From contig JAFTYI010000026.1 of the NCBI GenBank assembly GCA_017464815.1, positions 1 through 63,438 on the forward strand: DNA of 63,438 nt, given 5' to 3'. Position 1 is the stretch's first letter; every line of letters begins with the position of its first letter. Below the pieces are notes generated by a model, which did no database searches, was not told the origin of the DNA, and saw only the letters and a program-made list of their open reading frames with translations. A program made the position numbers and the translations under genes. Origin of the DNA: Bacteroidaceae bacterium. GTDB lineage: Bacteria > Bacteroidota > Bacteroidia > Bacteroidales > Bacteroidaceae. Below are positions 9,474-63,438 of the stretch, in pieces.

Positions 9474-10667
9474 TTACTTCAGCAGAGCCAGCGTCTCCTT
9501 GATGCGCTTCATGGATTCCACAATGTTCTCGTCCGAGGTGGCGTAGCTCATGCGGATGCACTCGGGACTGCCGAAAGCTCCACCACCCACGCAGGCCACG
9601 TGGCCCACCTCAAGCAGGAACATGGCCAGGTCGGCAGCATTTTCAATGGTGCGTCCTTCGTAGCTCTTTCCGAAGTAAGAGTCACACTTGGGGAACAGGT
9701 AGAAAGCGCCCTGGGGCACATTCACCTCAAAGCCCGGAATATCCTTGGCCAACTCCACGATGAGGTTGCGGCGGCGTTCGAAGGCCTGACGCATCTCCTC
9801 CACGGGAGCCTGTGTGCCGGTGTAGGCGGCTTCGGCAGCCTTTTGTGACACCGAGCAGGGGCCGGAGGTGTATTGTCCTTGCAGCTTGTTGCATGCCTTC
9901 ACAATCCATTCCGGTCCAGCGATGAATCCGATGCGCCATCCGGTCATGGCGTATGCTTTTGACACACCGTTCACGATGATGGTGTTCTCCTTCATCTCGG
10001 GGAACTGGGCGATGCTCTCGTGCTTGCCCACGTAGTTGATGTGCTCGTAGATTTCATCGGCAATCACGTACACCTGCGGATGCTTGGCCAACACGGCGGC
10101 CAGGCCGGCCAACTCCTCTTTGCTGTAAACCGAGCCTGTGGGGTTCGATGGCGAGCAAAGGATGAGAGCCTTTGTCTTCGGTGTGATGGCAGCTTCAAGC
10201 TGTGCGGGAGTAATCTTGAAATCCTGTTCAATGCCGGCACGGATGATGACGGGTGTGCCGTCGGCCAGCTTCACCATTTCGGGATAGCTCACCCAATAGG
10301 GGGCGGGCACAATCACTTCATCGCCTTCGCCCACCAACGCCATGATGACGTTGCACACCGATTGCTTGGCACCGTTTGAGCACGAAATCTGTGCAGCGGT
10401 GTAGTCCAGGTTGTTCTCGTTCTTCAGTTTGGCAACGATGGCATTGCGCAGGGCGGGATAGCCCGGCACGGGTGAATAACGCGAAAAGTTCTCGTCCACA
10501 GCCTGCTTGGCTGCTTCCTTGATGTGGTCGGGGGTGTTGAAGTCGGGTTCACCCACGCTCAGGTTGATTACGTCAATGCCTTGAGCCTTCAGCTCGTTGC
10601 TCTTTTGCGACATGGCAAGCGTCTCAGACGGTGAGAGGCGTTGCAAACGGTCGGATAAGTTGTTCAT
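9474..10667 (-). CDS. aspC: Pyridoxal-phosphate aspartate aminotransferase
   Basis: Protein of 397 residues, full length for class I aminotransferases. Visible motifs include SVGEPDFNTPDHI near residue 37, PAPYWVSYPEM, the SPSNPTGSVYS loop, and the Schiff-base lysine in NGVSKAYAMTGWRIGF near residue 240. The C-terminal arginine that binds the substrate alpha-carboxylate is in CIRMSYAT. It converts aspartate and 2-oxoglutarate to oxaloacetate and glutamate in the cytoplasm. It is encoded alone, between the ribBA gene and DUF6057. Confidence 0.9.
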   Translation of the reverse strand: MNNLSDRLQRLSPSETLAMSQKSNELKAQGIDVINLSVGEPDFNTPDHIKEAAKQAVDENFSRYSPVPGYPALRNAIVAKLKNENNLDYTAAQISCSNGAKQSVCNVIMALVGEGDEVIVPAPYWVSYPEMVKLADGTPVIIRAGIEQDFKITPAQLEAAITPKTKALILCSPSNPTGSVYSKEELAGLAAVLAKHPQVYVIADEIYEHINYVGKHESIAQFPEMKENTIIVNGVSKAYAMTGWRIGFIAGPEWIVKACNKLQGQYTSGPCSVSQKAAEAAYTGTQAPVEEMRQAFERRRNLIVELAKDIPGFEVNVPQGAFYLFPKCDSYFGKSYEGRTIENAADLAMFLLEVGHVACVGGGAFGSPECIRMSYATSDENIVESMKRIKETLALLK

Positions 10668-10735
10668 TTAGTTTGTTATTTAATTTTAGTTATTTATTTT
10701 CGTTCGTAACGGTTCAGCAGATGGTTTTCTGCATC

Positions 10736-12213: not shown

Positions 12214-14123
12214 TGGCTTTGGTTTTCCAGTTGCTGTTCTTTTTTTATTCTATCCATGATGGTGTTGCTGGTGCTTACGATTCTCTTCAAATCTTTGTCC
12301 AGCCGGCGACCGAACATCCAAATGCGTGCATAGAATACAAGTCCGACAGGCACCACCAACCCACACACCACGTTCAGCCATCGGTGGCTTGAAGGACTCT
12401 TGTGGGCACTGACTGACAGGATGGGGTACTCGTTCAGCGCGTTCAGAATTTGCGTGTCGGTGCTGTTGTTCAGCGTCTCCACAATGCTTTCCAACTCATC
12501 GCTGATATGCTGGATAACGGTGTCGTCTTCGTTGCGGGTGAAGATGCGCACGTAGTTGGGCGCACGGTCGAAACGTTCCTTGGCGGCATACTCCTCGCAC
12601 TGTCGGCAAAGAGCCTCCAAGCGGTCGTACACCTGTGGATAGTCGGGGTCTTCAATGATGACCTCTTTCTTGAAGATGTGCCGTTTGCTTCTCAATCCCA
12701 GCAGTTTCATGAAGAAGGCTTTGTAGGCATCCATGTTGAACACCACCGAGTCTCCGTTGGCCTTGTAGGTGAGCCATGCTCCCAAAGGCACCAACACCAT
12801 TGTGCTCACCCACACTCCGAACCACATTTGCAGTTCTCCCTCGCGTGCCATCTTCGAACCGGTGTTTTCGATGATGTAGTAGAAGATAAACAACACCACC
12901 GAGATGATGACCGGCATTCCCAGTCCCCCCTTGCGGATGATGGCTCCTAAGGGGGCACCGATGAAGAAGAAGATGATGCAGGCCAGCGACAGGGTTATCT
13001 TCTCCCACCAGAATTTCTGGTGACGGCGTATGTTCTTGTCGCCATCGCTGGTGATGTAGCTCTTCATCGACAGTTCCGAACTTTGCGTCTGCACGCGGTT
13101 TATGGCATTCTGTATCAGTTGTTCCCGCTTCTTATGGCTTTGCACGTTGAAAAGGCTGTCCATGTTGATACTGCGTGCCCGGGTCTGTTTCAGGCGGGTA
13201 GAGTCTGCACCGGTCAGTTCGACTTTCTTGTACGTAATCTTTCTTGAATCGGTGTAATATCCCCGTCCGATGCTGTCGAAGCGGGCGTTCATGGAGTCGA
13301 TGCTGTGGCCCAGTTCCCTCATACCCTTGGCAGCAGCCTGGTTGCTCAGCGTGCTGGCATCCATTTGGTTGAAGTTGGCGTCGAATTCGATGAGCGAATG
13401 TTTCTCGCGGAACGTCTCTCTGCGATAGGGCACGTTCTTCTGTGCCATGCTCTGTGTCTTCAGGTTCTCGAATTGTTCACCGCTGTAAAGATGCAGATTC
13501 AGATACTTCTTGTCGGCTGTCATTTCCATTCGTCCCGAGTCGGCCACGATGATGTGTGCATTCTCAAATCCGTCGCTGAAGTTGTAGATCATCACATCGT
13601 ACAGCATACCCGTCTCTTTGTTCTTCTTCTGCACGTACAGGTTGTATCCGTCCAGTTCGTGGTAGAAGGCGCCCTCGGGAATGTCCAGCTCGGGCGACTT
13701 TTGTTTCATGGAGAATATCAGGGCATACAGTTCTGTGGTGGCTCGTGGCCCGATGACGTTCTGGAAGTAGAAAGAGAGTCCGCTGATGAAGATGACCACC
13801 ACAATGAGCGGCCGCATCACCTTGATGAGCGGAATGCCGGCAGCCTTCATGGCCAGCAGTTCACACCGTTCTCCGAAGTTTCCGAAGGTAATGAGGGTTG
13901 CCAGCAAGATAGCCAGTGGCAAGCTCATGGGGATAAGCATCAGCGCCGAGTAGAAGAAGAATTGCGCCAATACGGATATTTCCAATCCTTTTCCTACCAG
14001 GTCTTCAATCTTTTGCCACAGGAACTGCATCATGAAGATGAACAGGCACACGAGGAATGTGCCTGCAAACAGTAGCAGGAAGCTCTTGATGACGAACAGA
14101 TATAACTTCTTTATGCGTAACAT
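12204..14123 (-). CDS. LptF/LptG family lipopolysaccharide-export permease
   Basis: Protein of 639 residues of the YjgP/YjgQ family. There are three membrane segments at the N-terminus (residues 8-35, 48-75, 95-120), a large periplasmic beta-jellyroll-like region with an inserted coiled region, and three more segments around residues 380-470 (IIFFFIGAPLGAII, IISVVLFIFYYI). A long charged C-terminal tail follows, as in Bacteroidota members. LptF and LptG with LptB2 extract LPS from the inner membrane. Only one such gene is in this window, so F versus G cannot be assigned. Its stop codon lies inside the 9-bp minisatellite. Confidence 0.9.
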   Translation of the reverse strand: MLRIKKLYLFVIKSFLLLFAGTFLVCLFIFMMQFLWQKIEDLVGKGLEISVLAQFFFYSALMLIPMSLPLAILLATLITFGNFGERCELLAMKAAGIPLIKVMRPLIVVVIFISGLSFYFQNVIGPRATTELYALIFSMKQKSPELDIPEGAFYHELDGYNLYVQKKNKETGMLYDVMIYNFSDGFENAHIIVADSGRMEMTADKKYLNLHLYSGEQFENLKTQSMAQKNVPYRRETFREKHSLIEFDANFNQMDASTLSNQAAAKGMRELGHSIDSMNARFDSIGRGYYTDSRKITYKKVELTGADSTRLKQTRARSINMDSLFNVQSHKKREQLIQNAINRVQTQSSELSMKSYITSDGDKNIRRHQKFWWEKITLSLACIIFFFIGAPLGAIIRKGGLGMPVIISVVLFIFYYIIENTGSKMAREGELQMWFGVWVSTMVLVPLGAWLTYKANGDSVVFNMDAYKAFFMKLLGLRSKRHIFKKEVIIEDPDYPQVYDRLEALCRQCEEYAAKERFDRAPNYVRIFTRNEDDTVIQHISDELESIVETLNNSTDTQILNALNEYPILSVSAHKSPSSHRWLNVVCGLVVPVGLVFYARIWMFGRRLDKDLKRIVSTSNTIMDRIKKEQQLENQSQKP

Positions 14124-14215
14124 TCTCGTTGTTATTGCACGTTTCAGCGTGCAAAAGTACTACAAAAAGGGCAGATGACCATTCTGTTTTTATGGTTTTT
14201 ATAGAAAAACTTCGG

Positions 14216-14602
14216 CTACATGCCACACAAGCGCATCAGTTGGTTCACTTCGGTGTCCCACAGGTCTGTCAAATCTTCCACTTCGTCCTCTTCGGCAAAG
14301 TCGGTAATCAGCAGTGTGTAGTCCCCGGTCAGTTCGTTGTATTCCATCCTCAGCTCGAAATAGCTTTTGGGGTCTTCGTCGTCCAACCAGTGGAAACGTA
14401 TGTGTGAGTTTACGCGGTGGTGTGTCCGTTCTGCTTTTCGGATTTCGTCCTGGCTCCATTCGAAGGTGTAGATGTTTTCGTTTACCGTCACGTTGTCGGC
14501 CATCCACGTTTGCAGGCCGGTGGGTGTTCCTATGGCGTTCCACAAGATGGGACCGGATACGGCGTTGAGGCTGTATTCAAGGTTGATTTTTCTCTTTGTC
14601 AT
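14216..14602 (-). CDS. START-like domain protein
   Basis: Protein of 128 residues, acidic near the C-terminus. The pattern INLEYSLNAVSGPILWNAIG, then TYTFEW-like strands and a final helix (DLWDTEVNQLMRLC), fits the small Bacteroidota START-like (Bet v1-fold) family near AHSA1 proteins. These single-domain proteins have a hydrophobic cavity, but no substrate is known. It is 92 bp upstream of lptF/G on the same strand. Confidence 0.8.
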   Translation of the reverse strand: MTKRKINLEYSLNAVSGPILWNAIGTPTGLQTWMADNVTVNENIYTFEWSQDEIRKAERTHHRVNSHIRFHWLDDEDPKSYFELRMEYNELTGDYTLLITDFAEEDEVEDLTDLWDTEVNQLMRLCGM

Positions 14603-14769
14603 GATTCAATCTGTCGATTTTATGTATACTCTTCTAATACTCTCTTTCATTTACGGCTACAAAATAAATGTTTTTTTCTTATATATAAGGTATATAGCTC
14701 TATCTTTTCACTCATTTTAGTAGATATATTCTCTTTTCGCCTTTTTCTTGAATAAAAATGCGCAAAAAA

Positions 14770-14801
14770 TTTGGCCATTTCAAAAGAAAGGCCTACCTTT
14801 G
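14770..14801 (+). promoter_or_regulatory. Promoter of the tRNA gene
   Basis: TTTG at 14770-14773 and TACCTTTG at 14794-14801, separated by 20 bp, match both halves of the Bacteroidota vegetative promoter. The tRNA begins 19 bp after the -7 element. Confidence 0.8.
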
Positions 14802-14820
14802 CACCCGCAAATCGGAAGAT

Positions 14821-14894
14821 GGCGGGATAGCTCAGCTGGTTAGAGCGCATGATTCATAATCATGAGGTCCCCGGTTCAATCCCGGGTCCCGCTA
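14821..14894 (+). tRNA. tRNA-Met (CAT anticodon)
   Basis: A complete 74-nt cloverleaf: 7-bp acceptor stem (GGCGGGA with TCCCGCT, first pair G-T), D arm with AGCTCAGCTGGTTAGAGC, anticodon stem CATGA/TCATG with loop TTCATAA, and T arm CCCCGGTTCAATCCCGGG. No CCA is encoded. Elongator tRNA-Met is most likely; tRNA-Ile2, which also has CAT before lysidine modification, cannot be excluded. It is not an initiator type because the anticodon stem lacks the three G-C pairs. Confidence 0.95.
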
Positions 14895-14905
14895 CTGAGA
14901 CTGAG

Positions 14906-14939
14906 AAAGAGGGTGTTTCAAAGACTCCCTCTTTTTTTT
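14906..14939 (+). terminator. Terminator of the tRNA transcript
   Basis: AAAGAGGG (14906-14913) pairs with CCCTCTTT across a 13-nt loop, and the right arm continues into a run of T. Confidence 0.85.
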
Positions 14940-14998
14940 GTTGCTGACAGCGCCTCCGGGGTGGGAGTGGAGGGGAGTACGCACAAGGACAAGATGAA

Positions 14999-15038
14999 GG
15001 AAAGCCGCGATTCTCAGAAAGAGAGGTCGCGGCTTTCC
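14999..15038. repeat. Perfect 12-bp inverted repeat
   Basis: GGAAAGCCGCGA (14999-15010) and TCGCGGCTTTCC (15027-15038) pair perfectly around a 16-nt loop. No T tract follows. It lies between the tRNA terminator and the AraC-type gene and may be a second terminator or an RNA structure. Confidence 0.7.
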
Positions 15039-15182
15039 CGATGATGATTGCTGTTATGAAAGATCTTCTTTTTGGGGAGCAAAAATTGCATGATTTTGCA
15101 AACATTCATGCGCTCTTTCTTGCTCATTTGAAATATTTGTTGCAAATTTACACCCGAATTTTCAATATAAGGCCCGTTTTTT

Positions 15183-16073
15183 ATGAAAAAACCTACGGAT
15201 TTCCTAGAAGTGGTGGGGTTGGAGCGGAAAAATCACGCTTTTGAGCCGTATGGCGTCTCTTGCAGTCGTTTTCCGGCTGCTATTATGCCTTGTATGGACC
15301 GTCACAATGAGATTGAAATTGTTTATGCCTTAGGTGGAGGTGTAACCTACTTCATTCAAGACCGCACGGTGGTGGTTCCTCCCCGCTGTATTGCCATCTT
15401 TTGGGGGATGTTTCCCCATCGCATTGTCGAGGTGGGTGGTTTCGATGGCTTCTATCTGTGTACCATCCCGTTGTCGTTGTTTTTGGGAATGGGGCTGTCC
15501 GAGGCGTTTATGAACAAAGTGTTCAAGGGTGAAATCCTGTTTGACGAGGATTCTCAGCGTCATGCCAGTTACGATCTGATGTTGTTGGAAAACTGGCGGG
15601 TCGACCTGGAGGCGGAACAGGCCAACCGGCATGTCGTGTTGTTGGAGATGCAGGCACGGCTCATCCGCATGTCGCAACATGTGTTGCCGGGTACGGTGTT
15701 GGGATTGTCTATGCAGGCGGGAGAAATGGACCTGGTGGAACGCATGACCCTCTACATAGCAGCCAATTGCCACCGTTCCATCAAGGTGGCCGACATCGGT
15801 CGTGCCGTGGGGTTGCACCCCGACTATGCCAACACCCTGTTCAAACGGGCGATAGGCCACACCCTCAGCTACCACCTGATGTTAGAGCGTATCACGCTGG
15901 CTCAGCGTAAGTTGTTGATGACGACCGACACGGTGGTGCATGTCTCCGAAACTTGTGGTTTCAATTCCCTCAGCAGTTTCAACAGTGCTTTTCTGAAATT
16001 CAACAATTGCACGCCGCGTGATTATCGCAAGCTTTTTCACATGAATCCAGATGTAAAAGAATCCAAGATATGA
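15183..16073 (+). CDS. AraC family transcriptional regulator (MelR-like)
   Basis: Protein of 296 residues. The N-terminal half is a cupin-type sensing domain with HNEIEIVYALGGGVTYF and PPRCIAIFWGMFPHRI. The C-terminal AraC DNA-binding domain has two helix-turn-helix units, one around IKVADIGRAVGLHPDYANTL and one around VSETCGFNSLSSFNSAF, ending in the typical CTPRDYRK. It probably binds a sugar-like ligand and controls transport or degradation genes. The stop overlaps the start of the AlkD-like gene by 4 bp. The PL1/receptor genes downstream are possible targets, by inference only. Confidence 0.88.
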   Translation: MKKPTDFLEVVGLERKNHAFEPYGVSCSRFPAAIMPCMDRHNEIEIVYALGGGVTYFIQDRTVVVPPRCIAIFWGMFPHRIVEVGGFDGFYLCTIPLSLFLGMGLSEAFMNKVFKGEILFDEDSQRHASYDLMLLENWRVDLEAEQANRHVVLLEMQARLIRMSQHVLPGTVLGLSMQAGEMDLVERMTLYIAANCHRSIKVADIGRAVGLHPDYANTLFKRAIGHTLSYHLMLERITLAQRKLLMTTDTVVHVSETCGFNSLSSFNSAFLKFNNCTPRDYRKLFHMNPDVKESKI

Positions 16074-57616: not shown

Positions 57617-57757
57617 ATGAAAGAAACGGTTTTTCAAAGTCCCCAATTGGGGCTAGTCATCAGTGAAATTATCGAACGCGAACACTTGGTCTGCTATCTG
57701 CATGAAGAGGCACACATGGGGCACACCACCATTGCCAAATTAAAAAGGGGGAACTGA
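57617..57757 (+). CDS. Small unknown protein A of a duplicated mini-operon
   Basis: A 46-residue frame, MKETVFQSPQLGLVISEI and so on, ends KLKRGN and TGA. The next ATG is 2 bp after the stop, so the two frames look co-translated. The family is not recognised. The protein is small, helical and slightly charged, with a TTIAKLKRG tail that could be DNA-binding-like (inference only). Imperfect inverted arms TGTTCCC/GGGAACA lie about 55-85 bp upstream. Confidence 0.5.
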   Translation: MKETVFQSPQLGLVISEIIEREHLVCYLHEEAHMGHTTIAKLKRGN

Positions 57758-57759
57758 CG

Positions 57760-57939
57760 ATGCACACAATGGTGCGTTTCCTGGCCGCATTACGTCAGCG
57801 TACCGACCAGGAAACGTTGGAAGAGTTTGTCATTCACGCTCTGCGCAGTCTGCTTGACAAGGGGGATGGCGAACTGAGGAGGATGCAAGAGGGGTGCCCC
57901 CTCCAACTCGAGGAAGGAGTGTCACAATTACTTTTTTAG
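57760..57939 (+). CDS. Small unknown protein B of a duplicated mini-operon
   Basis: A 59-residue frame starting MHTMVRFLAALRQRTDQETL ends QLLF. It is predicted to be helical and contains a repeated leucine pattern. About 100 bp around its start is almost identical to 58206-58330, where a second copy occurs. The nucleotide conservation over the coding region, with divergence on both sides, supports it being a real gene. Function is unknown. Confidence 0.55.
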   Translation: MHTMVRFLAALRQRTDQETLEEFVIHALRSLLDKGDGELRRMQEGCPLQLEEGVSQLLF

Positions 57940-58142: not shown

Positions 58143-58316
58143 ATGGCGGCATTCCTGCGCAACGAGGTGGGGGTGTGCCAATCTGTAGTAGAGAAGATTA
58201 AAAAAGGGGGAACAGACGATGCACACAATGGTGCGTTTCCTGGCCGCATTACGTCAGCGTACCGACCAGGAAACGTTGGAAGAGTTTGTCATTCACGCGC
58301 TGCGCTGTCTGCTTGA
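58143..58316 (+). pseudogene. Second copy of protein A, diverged and frameshifted
   Basis: The frame MAAFLRNEVGVCQSVVEKIK resembles the tail of protein A only weakly, but it sits in the same place before copy B. A run of six A and five G (58200-58210, five A in copy 1) throws the frame past the B start. The run could be a slip site that joins A and B in one frame, or simply a disabling mutation. Confidence 0.4.
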
Positions 58317-58470
58317 GGGGGAGGACAGCGAACTTCGGAAGATGTTGGAAGGGAAGTCGTTATTGGCTGCTTCTCTCATTCCATTTATTAAAGATGAGGT
58401 TCCACAATTTATTTCGTCCAGTGATGATGTGGACTGTAGTTTTGCTGTTACCGTTGAAAAGGGTATTTAA
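58219..58470 (+). CDS. Second copy of protein B with a replaced C-terminus
   Basis: An 83-residue frame. Residues 1-45 match protein B closely (MHTMVRFLAALRQRTDQETL onward). After about 58354 the similarity ends, exactly where the convergent HlyD-like gene's stop lies (58360). The remaining 38 codons are antisense to that gene. The copy thus appears to have been cut at the junction with the peptide operon. Function is unknown. Confidence 0.5.
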   Translation: MHTMVRFLAALRQRTDQETLEEFVIHALRCLLEGEDSELRKMLEGKSLLAASLIPFIKDEVPQFISSSDDVDCSFAVTVEKGI

Positions 58471-58791
58471 GGATAAGGTGTCTGTTGTTGTTGGGGTGAG
58501 GGAATAAACTTGGTTTATTGTCTCTGCTTCCATGTTGATAATGCGGAAGTGGAATACGTCACCCTCATAGGTGTGTACCCGCAGTGTATCACCCACTGAG
58601 TAAGATTTGTATGCGGAGTGAGGAATGTATGCCCTGCATACTCCTGTTTCCTCCTTATGCACATCGATTGCAACCTTGTTGTTGATATGGATGACGTGCA
58701 GCATATAGATGATGGCCACTAACATGATCATCAGTACGGCTGATATGCCGTAGTGCAATAGAAAACGATAGATTTGTTTCTTCATACTCAT
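58360..58791 (-). CDS. Short HlyD-like membrane protein of the peptide export operon
   Basis: Protein of 143 residues with one N-terminal membrane segment (about 13-35, YGISAVLMIMLVAIIYML). A beta-rich domain follows, with AYIPHSAYKSYSVGDTLRVHTYE and the ending VHIITGRNKLWNLIFNKW, which resembles the C-terminal end of HlyD-type adaptor proteins. Normal adaptors are about 400 residues, and the coiled-coil hairpin that reaches the outer membrane is absent here. It overlaps the exporter gene by 4 bp (ATGA). Confidence 0.7.
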   Translation of the reverse strand: MSMKKQIYRFLLHYGISAVLMIMLVAIIYMLHVIHINNKVAIDVHKEETGVCRAYIPHSAYKSYSVGDTLRVHTYEGDVFHFRIINMEAETINQVYSLTPTTTDTLSLNTLFNGNSKTTVHIITGRNKLWNLIFNKWNERSSQ

Positions 58792-60983
58792 TCGCCCCCC
58801 AATTCCAATTGGTTCTTTACCAGATCGTAGTAATACCCCCGATTTCTGACTAATTCCACGTGTCGTCCACTTTCTACCACCTTGCCATGTCGCAATACGA
58901 TGATGTTATCTGCATTTCTCACCGTAGATAAGCGGTGTGCTATCACTAATAAGGTTCGTCCTCGGAACTCCTTGTCGATGTTCTCCGTTATCTTTCGTTC
59001 GTTCTCCGCGTCCAATGAGCTGGTTGCTTCGTCCAACATCATGTACAGTGGTTTCTTATAGATGGCTCGTGCTATCATAATGCGTTGCTTCTCGCCGCCA
59101 CTTACTCCGTTTCCGTCAGCACCGATTTTGGTATATATGCCTAAAGGGAGGTCGGCCATATAGTCGTTCAGACAGGCCATCTCCAAAGCCCGTACCAACC
59201 TTTTGCTGTTGTATTCTTCTCCCAATATGATATTCTGTTTGATGGTGTCGGAGAAGACAAAATTCTCTTGCATCACGATGCCTGTCCGTTTTCGTATGGA
59301 TTCAGCTTTGTAACTTTCCAAATTATGTCCCCCCAATAAGATACGTCCTTCTGTAGGAGCATAGAATTTCAGCAACAGTTTCATCAACGTGGTCTTTCCG
59401 CTACCGCTTTCACCCACAATGGCCGTCATTTTCCCCGCAGGAATGGTCAGGCTCACATCATCCAAGGCTGCTTTCCCTATACTACCCGTGTAACGGAATG
59501 TCACATGGTCAACCACGATGTCTTCCGGTTCGTCAGCAGGAACGTCTGCCAACATTTCACTGTCTTCGTCCTTGCACAAATAGACCTCTTCCGAACGCTC
59601 CAAGCTGATTTTGGCATCTTGAAACTCTTGCAGGAAACTGATTAGCTGGGAGAGTGGGCCGTTTATCTGTCCGATGATGTTGGAAATACTCATCATCATA
59701 CCCAAGGTCAAGTCACCCTGCACCACTTCGGATGCTATCCAGAAGGTCACCAGAATGTTTCTTATCTGTCCGATCAGTGTATAGCCTGTGTTCTGAATCT
59801 GTCCCAATCGTAAGGATTTTTGGCTCATCCGATACTGATTTTCCTGCATTTCGTGCCATTCCTTGATTTTATAGTCGCTATAGGTGTTCAGTTTGATGTC
59901 TACGATGCCACTCAGCATTTCGTAGAGTTTGGTCTGATTATTACTCGAAATTTTGAAACTTTCATAATCCAATGACTTACGTTTTTCCCAGAAATAGTTC
60001 ATCCAAAGCGTACTGATGCCGGTCAATAACAGGTAAGCCATCAGAATGAACATGCTGTAATAACCGATGACCACCAACAGGAAGAGACCTGTCACGAAGG
60101 AAAACAGAGTCTGCATTGTAGCTTGTGTCGTAAAGTTCTGTAGTCGGCTGTGGTCACCTATCCGTTGATGGTAGTCACCTACGCTTTTTGTTTCAAAGAA
60201 AGTCATAGGCAGCTTCAACAGTTTGCTCAGATAGTCGTTGAGGATGTTGATGTTGATGCGTGTGGTCATGTACAGGGTGACCCAACTGCTGATAAGCCCC
60301 ATGGAGAACGACCCGAGGAAAAGGAAAATTTGGGCAAACAGGATGGATGTGATGATACTCATGTCTCGTTGTCCGATACCGTCATCCACCATGGCTTGAG
60401 TCAAGAAGGGTGTGACCAACGAAAGCAGAATACCGCTCAACAATCCGAAAGACAGCTGTATCATTTCGTGCTTGAATGGCCAGATGTATTTCTGGGCGAA
60501 GCGTATCAGACTGTGTTTTTCCTTGACGGGAGCCTTTGCATAAAACTCTTCTGTCGGTTCGATGGCTATGGCAATACCCTTGTCTCCGTTGAGCCAGTAC
60601 CGTTTCAGTTCCTCTTCCGAAAATGTATGCTTCCCGTAGGCTGGATTGGCTATACTGTACCGCCATTCCTTCCGCCATTTACTCCATTGGACATCATAGA
60701 GTACCACAAAATGGTTTTGCTCCCAATGCAGGATTGCCGGTAAGGGGCATTTGTCGTGCAACTGTTCCAATGACATCTTGAACGAAGCCGACTCCATGCC
60801 TATCTGTGTCAGCGCATCACGTATGCCCGCCACGCTCACCCCCTCACGGCTCAAATGCGAAAGGGTGCGCAGATAGGAAAGCGGATAGTCCTTGCCGTGG
60901 TGGAGTGCCACCATACGTACACAGGCAGGGCCACAGTCCATTTGGTCGAATTGACGGCAATGTGAAAAGCGTTTAAAGAACAT
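58788..60983 (-). CDS. C39-peptidase-containing ABC exporter (bacteriocin/RiPP type)
   Basis: Protein of 731 residues. The N-terminal C39 peptidase domain (about 1-150) has the catalytic Cys17 in QFDQMDCGPACVRM and the His in NHFVVLYDV. The third residue is normally Asp in a DPA motif, but here reads IANPAYG. Six membrane segments follow (about 165-430), and then the nucleotide-binding domain with GESGSGKTTL, NGVSGGEKQRIMIARAI, MMLDEATSSLD and IAHRLSTV. It is expected to cut double-glycine leaders and export the core. The start overlaps the GT14 gene by 11 bp. Confidence 0.93.
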   Translation of the reverse strand: MFFKRFSHCRQFDQMDCGPACVRMVALHHGKDYPLSYLRTLSHLSREGVSVAGIRDALTQIGMESASFKMSLEQLHDKCPLPAILHWEQNHFVVLYDVQWSKWRKEWRYSIANPAYGKHTFSEEELKRYWLNGDKGIAIAIEPTEEFYAKAPVKEKHSLIRFAQKYIWPFKHEMIQLSFGLLSGILLSLVTPFLTQAMVDDGIGQRDMSIITSILFAQIFLFLGSFSMGLISSWVTLYMTTRININILNDYLSKLLKLPMTFFETKSVGDYHQRIGDHSRLQNFTTQATMQTLFSFVTGLFLLVVIGYYSMFILMAYLLLTGISTLWMNYFWEKRKSLDYESFKISSNNQTKLYEMLSGIVDIKLNTYSDYKIKEWHEMQENQYRMSQKSLRLGQIQNTGYTLIGQIRNILVTFWIASEVVQGDLTLGMMMSISNIIGQINGPLSQLISFLQEFQDAKISLERSEEVYLCKDEDSEMLADVPADEPEDIVVDHVTFRYTGSIGKAALDDVSLTIPAGKMTAIVGESGSGKTTLMKLLLKFYAPTEGRILLGGHNLESYKAESIRKRTGIVMQENFVFSDTIKQNIILGEEYNSKRLVRALEMACLNDYMADLPLGIYTKIGADGNGVSGGEKQRIMIARAIYKKPLYMMLDEATSSLDAENERKITENIDKEFRGRTLLVIAHRLSTVRNADNIIVLRHGKVVESGRHVELVRNRGYYYDLVKNQLELGGE

Positions 60984-62484
60984 TATTCTGTGCTTTGCCT
61001 GCTACTTGAAAAACCAATAAACCTTCCTTGTTCTCTTTTTTGCGAGAATGGTCACGCATCACTTTGGTTGCCAATTTATCCAATACGAATCCGTGCTGCT
61101 CCATTTTCTTTAGCAAGGTCTCTTCGGGGATAGCATTGACAATTCTCTCATCATGTTTCTTGTATGATGCCCAATTCATTATTAAATAACGTCCTGTGCA
61201 TGCAGCCAAATTATTCAGAACACGCTCTTCATGTTGGGGAGGAATATATTCGCCCACATTCAGAAATAACACTAAGTCATACGGTTCGCTTACATTTAGT
61301 TCTTCTGTCACATCTGCTTCTTCACAAGGGTAGCGGGTGTCTTTGGGCATAATCAGTGATGACAGTTCACTGGTATGCGGATTTCCATCGTACCCAATGG
61401 CAGGAATCTTTTCTATTTGTAAATCTGACACGTAATATCCGGGACCACATCCCAAATCCAAAACGGAATCTATCTCCAATGTACGACATAGGAAAAGAAG
61501 TCCTAGGGTAAGCCCATAGTCGTAGTCATAATCATTGAATGAACAAGAGAGCCAACATCCTGTAGAAGATGTTCCTTTAGAAGGCTCCTTCAACATGTAT
61601 TTGTCAATAGCATTCACCAATGAAGAACAAGAAGGGTGTTCAAATTTCCTTGCAAAAAACGTTCTGCCATATTTTAGAATTTTGTCTAAATACTCTAATG
61701 TTAAATCCATTGGAGAACAATCTTTCCCTGGGTTATTCCACAAAATACAGCGAAAATTTTCGTTGTTGTTAATGTCTTTGGCATACGCAGAATTCATCAA
61801 TACGGAAGCGATATAGACCTCTTCAGGATAAAACGTGTATTTTAATCTTTTGTAAAAAGATGGATGTTCATGGGTATAATCCCGTAAATATTCCGCGCAA
61901 CGTCTACAGATAGAGAACCAAGCAGACCCTCCATATAACCGTTCTATTTGGTCTGGAATTCGTCGTTTGAAATTTAATTTCCTCTGCCAGTCAATGAATT
62001 TGAGTACCTTATTTTTCCCTTCTTTAGGCTTGGCATTAATCCAATCTGTAAGTACATAATACTGCATACGAAAATAGGTGCCATTGTCAAACTGAGTATG
62101 TGGCAATTGACTACAACTTAAAAAACCAGCTTTTTCTGTTTCATGGAAATAGTGCAAGAATTCATTCAACGGTTTTAGCGGATAGTCCTGTCCACTAAGT
62201 AAATGAAAATAATCTCCATTGCTATGTTTTAAGGCTTCTTTCAATAAAAACAATTCACAACGTAAAATGGAAAAACCTGCCCAAGAAACAGAAAATCTTT
62301 GGTACACCTTTTTCACTCCCGGCATTTTGGATAAACTAATCAAATCTTCTTTGGAAAACTTGGCTTTTTTGTCCACATGAATGAAAAGGTCGCATTTCCC
62401 CTCGAAATAAGAAACGAGTTTGATCAATTGTTGAATATTCTTATGCGCTAATATTAAAATGACTTGTTTACTTCTATATTTCAT
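60973..62484 (-). CDS. GT14-like glycosyltransferase fused to a SAM methyltransferase
   Basis: Protein of 503 residues from ATG 62484 (MKYRSKQV); an upstream start would overlap the precursor gene. The N-terminal part (about 5-250) is a core-2/I-branching or xylosyltransferase-like GT14 domain, with VILILAHK, LFIHVDKKAKF, LLSGQDYPLKP (97-105), GGSAWFS (185-191) and PEEVYIAS (220-227). The C-terminal part (about 315-490) is a class I methyltransferase with VLDLGCGPGYY at 341-351. It lies between the precursor gene (20-bp gap) and the exporter gene (11-bp overlap), so it probably modifies the peptide. Confidence 0.85.
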   Translation of the reverse strand: MKYRSKQVILILAHKNIQQLIKLVSYFEGKCDLFIHVDKKAKFSKEDLISLSKMPGVKKVYQRFSVSWAGFSILRCELFLLKEALKHSNGDYFHLLSGQDYPLKPLNEFLHYFHETEKAGFLSCSQLPHTQFDNGTYFRMQYYVLTDWINAKPKEGKNKVLKFIDWQRKLNFKRRIPDQIERLYGGSAWFSICRRCAEYLRDYTHEHPSFYKRLKYTFYPEEVYIASVLMNSAYAKDINNNENFRCILWNNPGKDCSPMDLTLEYLDKILKYGRTFFARKFEHPSCSSLVNAIDKYMLKEPSKGTSSTGCWLSCSFNDYDYDYGLTLGLLFLCRTLEIDSVLDLGCGPGYYVSDLQIEKIPAIGYDGNPHTSELSSLIMPKDTRYPCEEADVTEELNVSEPYDLVLFLNVGEYIPPQHEERVLNNLAACTGRYLIMNWASYKKHDERIVNAIPEETLLKKMEQHGFVLDKLATKVMRDHSRKKENKEGLLVFQVAGKAQNNVL

Positions 62485-62504
62485 GGTAAACCTTGGATTA
62501 ATGT

Positions 62505-62906
62505 TTACAAACAATTGCTTGGATTCGTAACACATTGACTACCATGAGGCCCTCCTCCATTTCCGTTGCAAGTGTTTTGGTTGTAGCAACTGTTATTATC
62601 TGTAGCAGAAACATTACTGCCGCATTGGTTATTATTATTTGCATAAATGTTATTATAACATGATTTGTTATCATAAGCAACAGTGTTATCTCTACATTTA
62701 TCATTAGAGTTACAGGTGCTCGCATTGTCTGTACAAGAGGGATTCCCGTTGCAATCACCATTGAATGAACATGAGCCGTTATCATTACAATTGCCATTTC
62801 CTATTGATGCATAAGGAGAGATTCCGCCTAAAATACGTAATGATTCCATCTCGGACAATAAATCATTTTCGCTAATGTTAACCCTTAAATTTCTTAATGT
62901 TTTCAT
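62505..62906 (-). CDS. Double-glycine leader precursor with hexapeptide Cys/Asn repeats
   Basis: Protein of 133 residues. The leader (1-28) ends in LRILGG and resembles the GG-type Bacteroidales natural product leaders. The core of 105 residues has 12 Cys and 27 Asn. Gaps between successive Cys are 5, 5, 5, 6, 5, 11, 11, 11, 5, 11 and 6 residues, so Cys or Ala sits on a six-residue register, with Asn at the fourth position of 14 of about 16 repeats. It probably forms a coil or solenoid and is cut by the adjacent C39 domain. No Shine-Dalgarno or promoter is visible because an IS4-family element starts about 2 bp upstream. Confidence 0.8.
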   Translation of the reverse strand: MKTLRNLRVNISENDLLSEMESLRILGGISPYASIGNGNCNDNGSCSFNGDCNGNPSCTDNASTCNSNDKCRDNTVAYDNKSCYNNIYANNNNQCGSNVSATDNNSCYNQNTCNGNGGGPHGSQCVTNPSNCL

Positions 62907-62972
62907 AAGTGTCCACTAAAAAATCGAAACAGTTCATTGAAATGATTGATATTTAATTTGTTACAAGAAATT

Positions 62973-63002
62973 TTTGAGTCAACGGATTTGAAATTACTTT
63001 TG
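62973..63002 (+). promoter_or_regulatory. Promoter of the IS transposase
   Basis: TTTG at 62973-62976 and TACTTTTG at 62995-63002 are 18 bp apart, 20 bp before the transposase start codon. Confidence 0.6.
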
Positions 63003-63021
63003 CGGTCATAATCAAATCGTT

Positions 63022-63438
63022 ATGAATAAAGACAAATTCGTTTTCGCTCAATTAGTCGAGTTCTTAGATAGAAATCACTTCAATTATCTCGTCCGCAAAT
63101 ATCTGGGAGACAAGTACATAAAGTTCTTCTCTTGTTGGAATCAACTGCTTGTAATGATGTTCGGCCAACTCGCAAAATGCGAAAGTTTGCGTGACCTAAT
63201 CGTTGCGCTCGAAGCACATTGGCGCAAGCTATATCACTTAGGTATGGGCAAGTCTGTAACACGGAGCAATCTTGCTAAAGCGAACGAGCAACGCGACTAC
63301 AGAATCTTCGAAGATTTCGCCTATCATCTGGTAGCGGAAGCACGTTCCAAAAGCACCGAAAAGATATTCGGTTTTGATGGTCATGTGTATGCTTTTGACT
63401 CAACCACGATAGACCTTTGTCTTGAAGTGTTCGAGTGG
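63022..63438 (+). CDS. IS4-family transposase, 5' part (partial)
   Basis: The frame starts MNKDKFVFAQLVEFLDRNHF and runs open to the window end (139 codons). The N-terminal region resembles the DUF4372-type DNA-binding part of Bacteroidota IS4 transposases. The first catalytic Asp is seen in YAFDSTTIDL. The transposase is oriented away from the peptide operon. Confidence 0.85.
   Translation, partial: MNKDKFVFAQLVEFLDRNHFNYLVRKYLGDKYIKFFSCWNQLLVMMFGQLAKCESLRDLIVALEAHWRKLYHLGMGKSVTRSNLAKANEQRDYRIFEDFAYHLVAEARSKSTEKIFGFDGHVYAFDSTTIDLCLEVFEW

Follow-up and report, generated by a model that had tools for sequence, protein, structure and literature searches.

The window analysed here, 63,438 nucleotides long, is the whole of contig JAFTYI010000026.1 (G000:C57 in our numbering, in which G, C and L denote genomes, contigs and loci), from a 2.63 Mb genome that is 79% complete and belongs to the same family as Paraprevotella clara. 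Near its end lies an operon in which a precursor peptide with a double-glycine (GG) leader stands ahead of a fusion between a GT14-like glycosyltransferase and an S-adenosylmethionine (SAM) methyltransferase, a C39-peptidase ABC exporter (PCAT) and a short membrane protein, a set that suggests a ribosomally synthesized and post-translationally modified peptide (RiPP). A sequence-only reading of the window had proposed four minus-strand genes, and open reading frames (ORFs) together with Pfam domains confirmed all four where it had placed them, with every frame intact. The features are:

62505..62906, minus strand: precursor peptide gene, 133 amino acids (leader 62823-62906, core 62508-62822)
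60973..62535, minus strand: GT14-methyltransferase fusion (Pfam), with a probable start at 62484 (503 amino acids)
58788..60983, minus strand: C39-peptidase ABC exporter (PCAT), 731 amino acids (Pfam)
58360..58791, minus strand: short membrane protein, 143 amino acids, an N-terminal helix plus strands (poor model), with a weak MAG1140-family match
62904..63438, plus strand: terminal part of an IS4-family element, with the transposase (DUF4372) from 63022, continuing to the contig end

The genes are tightly packed. The fusion and exporter genes overlap by 11 nucleotides and those of the exporter and the short protein by 4. The overlap of the precursor and fusion ORFs needs correction. Relatives of the fusion begin at about residue 18-22 of the window protein, so that its start is probably 62484 and not 62535, and a start at 62484 lies 20 nucleotides past the precursor stop and leaves the two genes without overlap. 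The proposed protein identities also held in the main: the 133-residue precursor ORF carries a leader that ends in GG, the fusion matches Branch/GT14 (3.9e-22) and Methyltransf_23 (2e-7), and the exporter matches Peptidase_C39 (1.1e-28), ABC_membrane and ABC_tran. Calling the short protein HlyD-like was less apt, as its top match is NCBIfam NF045999 at 28.5 bits against a cut-off of 35. The GC content is 0.36 for the precursor gene, 0.37 for the fusion, 0.47 for the exporter and 0.42 for the short protein.

The leader of the precursor is 28 residues long, the same length as in L065, L066, L070, L094 and L096. The 105-residue core contains 12 Cys, 27 Asn and 13 Ser, with a Cys about every six residues (spacings 6, 6, 6, 7, 6, 12, 12, 12, 6, 12 and 7). 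Spacing as even as this or better arose in 14 of 5,000 residue shuffles, and an Asn stands three positions after the Cys in 10 of 11 cases in the window core. The frame remained open in none of 2,000 base shuffles. The precursor has no Pfam match and no NCBIfam match up to E 1, and a relative of it occupies the same position ahead of a 67%-identical fusion in L031/L065 (taken as one contig). Cys repeats of other kinds recur at related fusion loci: Cys stands at every seventh residue in L067, as part of GSGC units; at every fifth over much of L097; and at every eighth over part of L096. L065 has C-x-C pairs. Because the cores are low in complexity, z values for their similarity serve only as a guide; hexad similarity to the window core was highest in L059 (z 7.1) and L057 (4.9, and 3.3 for a second peptide), whose enzymes lack the methyltransferase, with 4.1 for L065 and values below 2 for L066, L097 and L096.

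In the fusion, numbered by the long ORF, the GT14 domain spans residues 28-286 and the methyltransferase residues about 340-513, with a SAM motif at G362-G364; a Pfam scan to E 1 gave only Branch and methyltransferase families, with no Xylo_C. The glycosyltransferase half resembles human peptide O-xylosyltransferase 1 (XT1), a GT14 enzyme that attaches xylose to proteoglycans. Its profile match to XT1 is 4e-26, and the two share sequence, the GT-A fold, a Glu base (E239), an Arg-Lys pair (R296-K297) and two Trp, with W85 present in the window protein, so that residues of the catalytic type are in place. The fusion differs from XT1 in carrying a methyltransferase instead of Xylo_C and in not keeping D494, and its presumptive substrate core has no Ser-Gly enrichment. 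None of 23 matching plasmid records covers 80% of the fusion.

Related genes are scattered through the family. Among 251 family genomes, 76 match the query, many in the GT14 part only, and 20, including that of the window, do so below 1e-70; the fusion was found in none of 14 other genomes of the same genus. At the order level, and not counting the window's own genome, 14 of 393 genomes reach 1e-40; their matches cover the GT14 part and extend no further than profile position 304, except for one, with several stops, that ends at 342. Scanning contigs with an alignment as query gave 68 loci, and the window protein alone as query gave none. In 38 of the first 45 loci the fusion is present, be it complete, truncated or broken; the other seven, GT14-only or short pieces (L100, L102-L106 and L108), were dropped, and L037 and L043, known to hold PCATs, were added by hand to make 40.

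The sequence-only reading would have been undermined by fusions that stood mostly beside capsule genes and never next to GG-leader peptides. The search found a C39 exporter at 13 of the 38 fusion loci (15 of 40 with the added loci, 16 of 47 if the dropped loci are counted too) and GG-leader peptides at most exporter loci. Of the 15 exporter-bearing loci, eleven encode a short precursor with a GG leader, and two others a GG-leader protein of about 225 residues; in L043 and L071 no candidate was found when a motif list was searched by eye. In a tree of 38 rows, in which L098 is a long branch, the window groups with L065, L066, L067, L070 and L096 (92/96), all of them exporter-bearing, and the exporter label requires two changes as against 10.1 for shuffles. 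The 20 fusion genomes (about 62 Mb) hold 31 C39 matches, 10 of them within 10 kb of a fusion.

Other kinds of gene recur beside the fusion. The 40 loci include six with a radical SAM maturase, four with a LanC-like protein (one being L043), six with an outer-membrane barrel protein, eight with a UDP-xylose synthase, six with a UDP-galactopyranose mutase and 14 with proteins that we call WxGGYV; except for L043, all these cases fall within the 38 scanned loci, and the counts are lower bounds because many contigs end early. The radical SAM assignment was confirmed by Pfam in all three cases tested (L096, L067 and L097), and the LanC-like match in Pfam is above the cut-off in L043 and below it in L099; the remaining assignments rest on BLAST similarity. 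L066 has the order mutase, radical SAM, barrel protein, precursor, PCAT, short membrane protein and fusion, which L096, L067, L094 and L097 resemble, with some genes broken. Two of the radical SAM enzymes are nearest to the Clo7bot, TIGR04463, FlmE/OhkG and CefB (Cys-every-fifth) maturases, all below cut-off. In L043, L073, L081 and L099 the fusion adjoins LanC-like and GT7-like proteins, and such proteins next to GT14 are reminiscent of the two opening steps of the proteoglycan linker.

GT14 genes without a methyltransferase served as controls. The 28 from the same family show a C39 exporter at four, a UDP-xylose synthase at none, a mutase at four and a radical SAM enzyme at two. The exporter figure combines 24 loci that gave no C39 with four PCAT loci that had been set aside earlier, 4 of 28 being the unbiased value; those four are the sister systems L057, L058, L059 and L063. 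The 28 controls from elsewhere have no UDP-xylose synthase, mutase or radical SAM enzyme. A capsule enzyme is not supported by the C39 counts at fusion versus GT14-only loci.

The sister systems also bear on the history of the operon. The window exporter, whose gene is the sole C39 match in its genome (79% complete), is 70-73% identical to those of L057, L058, L059 and L063 and 41-42% identical to those of L065, L066 and L096. The fusion is instead related to those of L065 (67% identity), L066 (47%) and L096 (41%), which are equivalent to L031, L032 and L034. Leader similarity to the window has z values of 10.6 to 16.4 with L065, L066, L096 and L097, and of -0.6 to 0.5 with L057 and L059. Across these few loci, leader resemblance thus appears to follow the fusion and not the exporter, and we read the window operon as a natural recombinant in which the precursor leader and the fusion would have moved together. 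This apparent joint movement is our strongest evidence that the precursor is a substrate of the fusion, and it goes further than gene order does. The sequence-only reading had argued for this modification from gene order; it gains from the leader comparison, and is qualified by substrates that extend beyond PCAT peptides, as described below.

In L057 and L059 the sister systems have Asn/Cys hexad cores like that of the window but a different leader, and the GT14 enzymes of the four lack the methyltransferase and are 28-38% identical (broken in L063). The GT14 of L057 (7440-8978) has an extra C-terminal part of about 200 amino acids with no Pfam match above cut-off, and L058:905-2443 looks alike. 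Relatives of the short membrane protein, at 32-42% identity, adjoin the related exporters of L057, L058 and L059. The window protein has no Pfam match, and its model is one long N-terminal helix plus strands at a poor pLDDT of 58. NCBIfam numbers MAG1140 (NF045999) beside a peptidase-domain ABC transporter family, NF045998, and both match here below cut-off. These matches hint at a wider family of exporter partners, the short protein being a putative partner of the exporter. In L065 a fused form is suggested by an exporter ORF of 908 amino acids together with a match to the short membrane protein in the locus.

As to the sugar, ten of the 20 fusion genomes contain UDP-xylose synthases, 12 in all, and 7 of these lie no more than 10 kb from a fusion (binomial P 6e-12, calculated post hoc for an assumed 28 fusion places; the count is 27). 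The L097 synthase matches human UDP-glucuronate decarboxylase at about 2e-102. The window genome has a 60%-identical UDP-xylose synthase on C11 and, at 79% completeness, no match to UDP-galactopyranose mutase. The synthase neighbours, together with a genome that has a synthase and no mutase match, favour UDP-xylose.

We therefore propose that the operon makes a secreted, leader-guided, RiPP-like peptide that is glycosylated, likely with xylose, and methylated by the fusion and exported by the C39 protein, an account that we consider somewhat better supported than not. The 28-residue leader would guide the fusion to the peptide. The fusion would attach a sugar to side chains that repeat along the core, which is rich in Asn, Ser, Thr and Cys, and would methylate that sugar or a nearby residue; the sugar would most likely be the pentose xylose, donated by UDP-xylose. 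The exporter would then cleave after Gly-Gly and carry the core out, the short membrane protein being a putative adaptor. We infer that the fusion acts on the peptide, which sugar it uses, where the methyl group goes, and that the product crosses both membranes. The recurrent operon type is real, and a glycosylated and methylated RiPP is its most likely product. A broader proposal is more tentative and perhaps doubtful: that Bacteroidaceae possess a bacterial equivalent of the enzyme with which proteoglycans begin, a leader-guided peptide xylosyltransferase-methyltransferase that makes xylosylated and methylated Cys-repeat RiPPs, with a second branch acting on the larger secreted WxGGYV proteins and with UDP-xylose often made nearby.

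Several observations weigh against this account, some concerning the substrate and others the sugar. In six of the 20 fusion genomes C39 has no match, larger WxGGYV proteins flank the fusion in 14 of 38 loci, and among six controls from elsewhere that were scanned for C39, one (L108, GT14-only) was positive. The WxGGYV neighbours and C39-free genomes indicate that the substrates of the fusion extend past PCAT peptides. The WxGGYV neighbours also bear on the idea that the peptide is secreted without modification, as a disulfide-rich peptide or bacteriocin, and that the fusion, merely co-transcribed, has another substrate: other proteins adjoin the fusion at those 14 loci, and Bacteroidales PCATs do export unmodified GG peptides, the bacteroidetocins, according to PMC10352776. 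We regard this as improbable, given that leader type tracks the fusion, that fusions recur alongside radical SAM and LanC-like proteins, and that precursor and fusion share a low GC content relative to the exporter, although the last point is tempered by L057, where the precursors alone are lower in GC than the other genes; the genes of L065 show no GC split.

With regard to the sugar, the synthase of the window genome lies on another contig in an ordinary context. W85, E239 and R296-K297 also occur in 49, 55 and 58 of 67 further GT14 rows (a set that includes four fusion-locus rows and seven weak off-strand matches), so these XT1-like residues, common in bacterial GT14s, say little about the sugar, and we rejected them as proof of xylose. 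At the position of XT1 D494 the window protein has Ala205, and 24 of 34 rows have Gln. The window core holds one Ser that precedes Gly or Ala, where 2.0 would be expected, and L065 shows no enrichment either; Ser-Gly repeats were rejected as a general acceptor for the window core. Of 14 cores, those of L067, L070 and L097 are enriched and that of L094 marginally so. The mutase lies near 6 of 38 fusions as well as 4 of 28 GT14-only genes, and five of 22 mutase places are near a fusion.

The same system might accordingly use a different sugar: a hexose, a furanose such as galactofuranose, or GlcNAc as in C2GnT enzymes. The mutase neighbours fit this, the more so as the mutase gene adjoins the UDP-xylose synthase gene in G053, G029, G202 and G069; C2GnT-L and XT1 tie in the fold comparison, and the Pfam family bears the name Core-2/I-Branching. 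On the other side, the window genome, at 79% completeness, has no mutase match, and in the profile search the E-value for XT1 is 17 orders of magnitude better than that for C2GnT. The fusion also retains a Trp that in XT1 is thought to exclude hexoses, as stated in PMC5992326, although other bacterial GT14s retain it likewise. We judge another sugar unlikely, and continue with xylose as the favoured donor sugar.

The WxGGYV proteins (L068, L069, L074, L075, L079, L083, L084, L087, L088, L089, L090, L091, L095 and L101) share the motif NPYT..E..W.GGYV and differ in their C-terminal parts, by eye HEIVH in one and CHAP-like in another; two scanned against Pfam had no match. Among 20 examined, S-G enrichment is clear in L069 only (0 of 500 shuffles), with two at 29 and 38 of 500 and the remaining 17 at 102 or more. 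In L095 (1313-3538) the methyltransferase part of the fusion continues in frame into a WxGGYV protein, with a shared NPYT stretch. L108, from Bacteroidales, encodes a GG-leader protein of 255 amino acids (9941-10708) and a C39 exporter (13549-15792). Cultured gut strains with related loci are Paraprevotella clara YIT 11840 (L069 and L107) and P. xylaniphila YIT 11841 (L109).

Whether the operon is expressed in this genome is uncertain, because the precursor ATG abuts an insertion sequence (IS) that cuts the operon off from its upstream DNA. From about 62904 the window matches the ends of IS copies on C32 of the same genome (97%) and in two further genomes of the genus (85% and 80%). The three other copies all read GTGGACACT(T/A)ATG and then run into unrelated DNA, so the IS either itself ends in ATG or inserts at ATG; the precursor ATG sits at the IS terminus, and native upstream DNA is beyond view. 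The operon could thus be a decaying or silent remnant, if the IS removed its own promoter together with any radical SAM or outer-membrane gene that stood upstream of it. Radical SAM genes at 6 of 38 fusion loci versus 2 of 28 GT14-only loci, yet with no match in the window genome, fit such a loss. However, the four frames are intact, the genome is 79% complete with the contig ending inside the IS, and IS ends can carry outward promoters; we consider decay possible but doubtful. The same IS end directly precedes DNA that by eye resembles a CRISPR array in the same genome (G000:C32:1-700, L142). Just past the other end of the operon, 57742-57894 and 58201-58353 form a 153-nucleotide direct repeat (90% identical), and a plus-strand ORF in either copy starts MHTMVRFLAALRQRTDQETLEEFVIHALR.

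Comparison with known systems sets the enzyme apart. Glycocins are likewise secreted, Cys-rich GG-leader peptides with a C39 exporter and a glycosyltransferase, but theirs is a SunS-type GT2 S-glycosyltransferase and their Cys form nested disulfide pairs, whereas the window operon has Cys repeats and a GT14 with a fused methyltransferase; Branch/GT14 is the only glycosyltransferase match in Pfam among its genes, with no GT2. The TIGR04149/GG-leader radical-SAM RiPPs of Bacteroidetes resemble it in leader type, C39 exporter and Cys-repeat cores, and the precursor of L066 is a weak match to TIGR04149 (19.2 bits, under the cut-off of 25). Those RiPPs use radical SAM enzymes where the window operon has the fusion: Pfam found no radical SAM among the operon genes, and the L096 maturase as query had no match in the window genome (79% complete). 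The lanthipeptide enzymes LanC and LanM are absent from the operon genes by Pfam, with LanC-like proteins at 3 of 38 relatives and in L043. The nine chosen Bacteroidales clusters that PMC10352776 describes contain radical SAM, LanC, YcaO or LanM, and its BGC9 combines a PCAT, a glycosyltransferase and a methyltransferase as here but is centred on LanM. Among the matches listed in the open-licence PMC literature, no title or abstract opening describes a GT14-methyltransferase RiPP. GG-leader PCAT peptides are already known, and the enzyme and its putative chemistry alone would be new. If our account is correct, the GT14 family, and with it probably a pentose, would be added to RiPP chemistry, glycosyl and methyl transfer would be coupled in one polypeptide, and protein xylosylation of the XT1 type would have a bacterial parallel.

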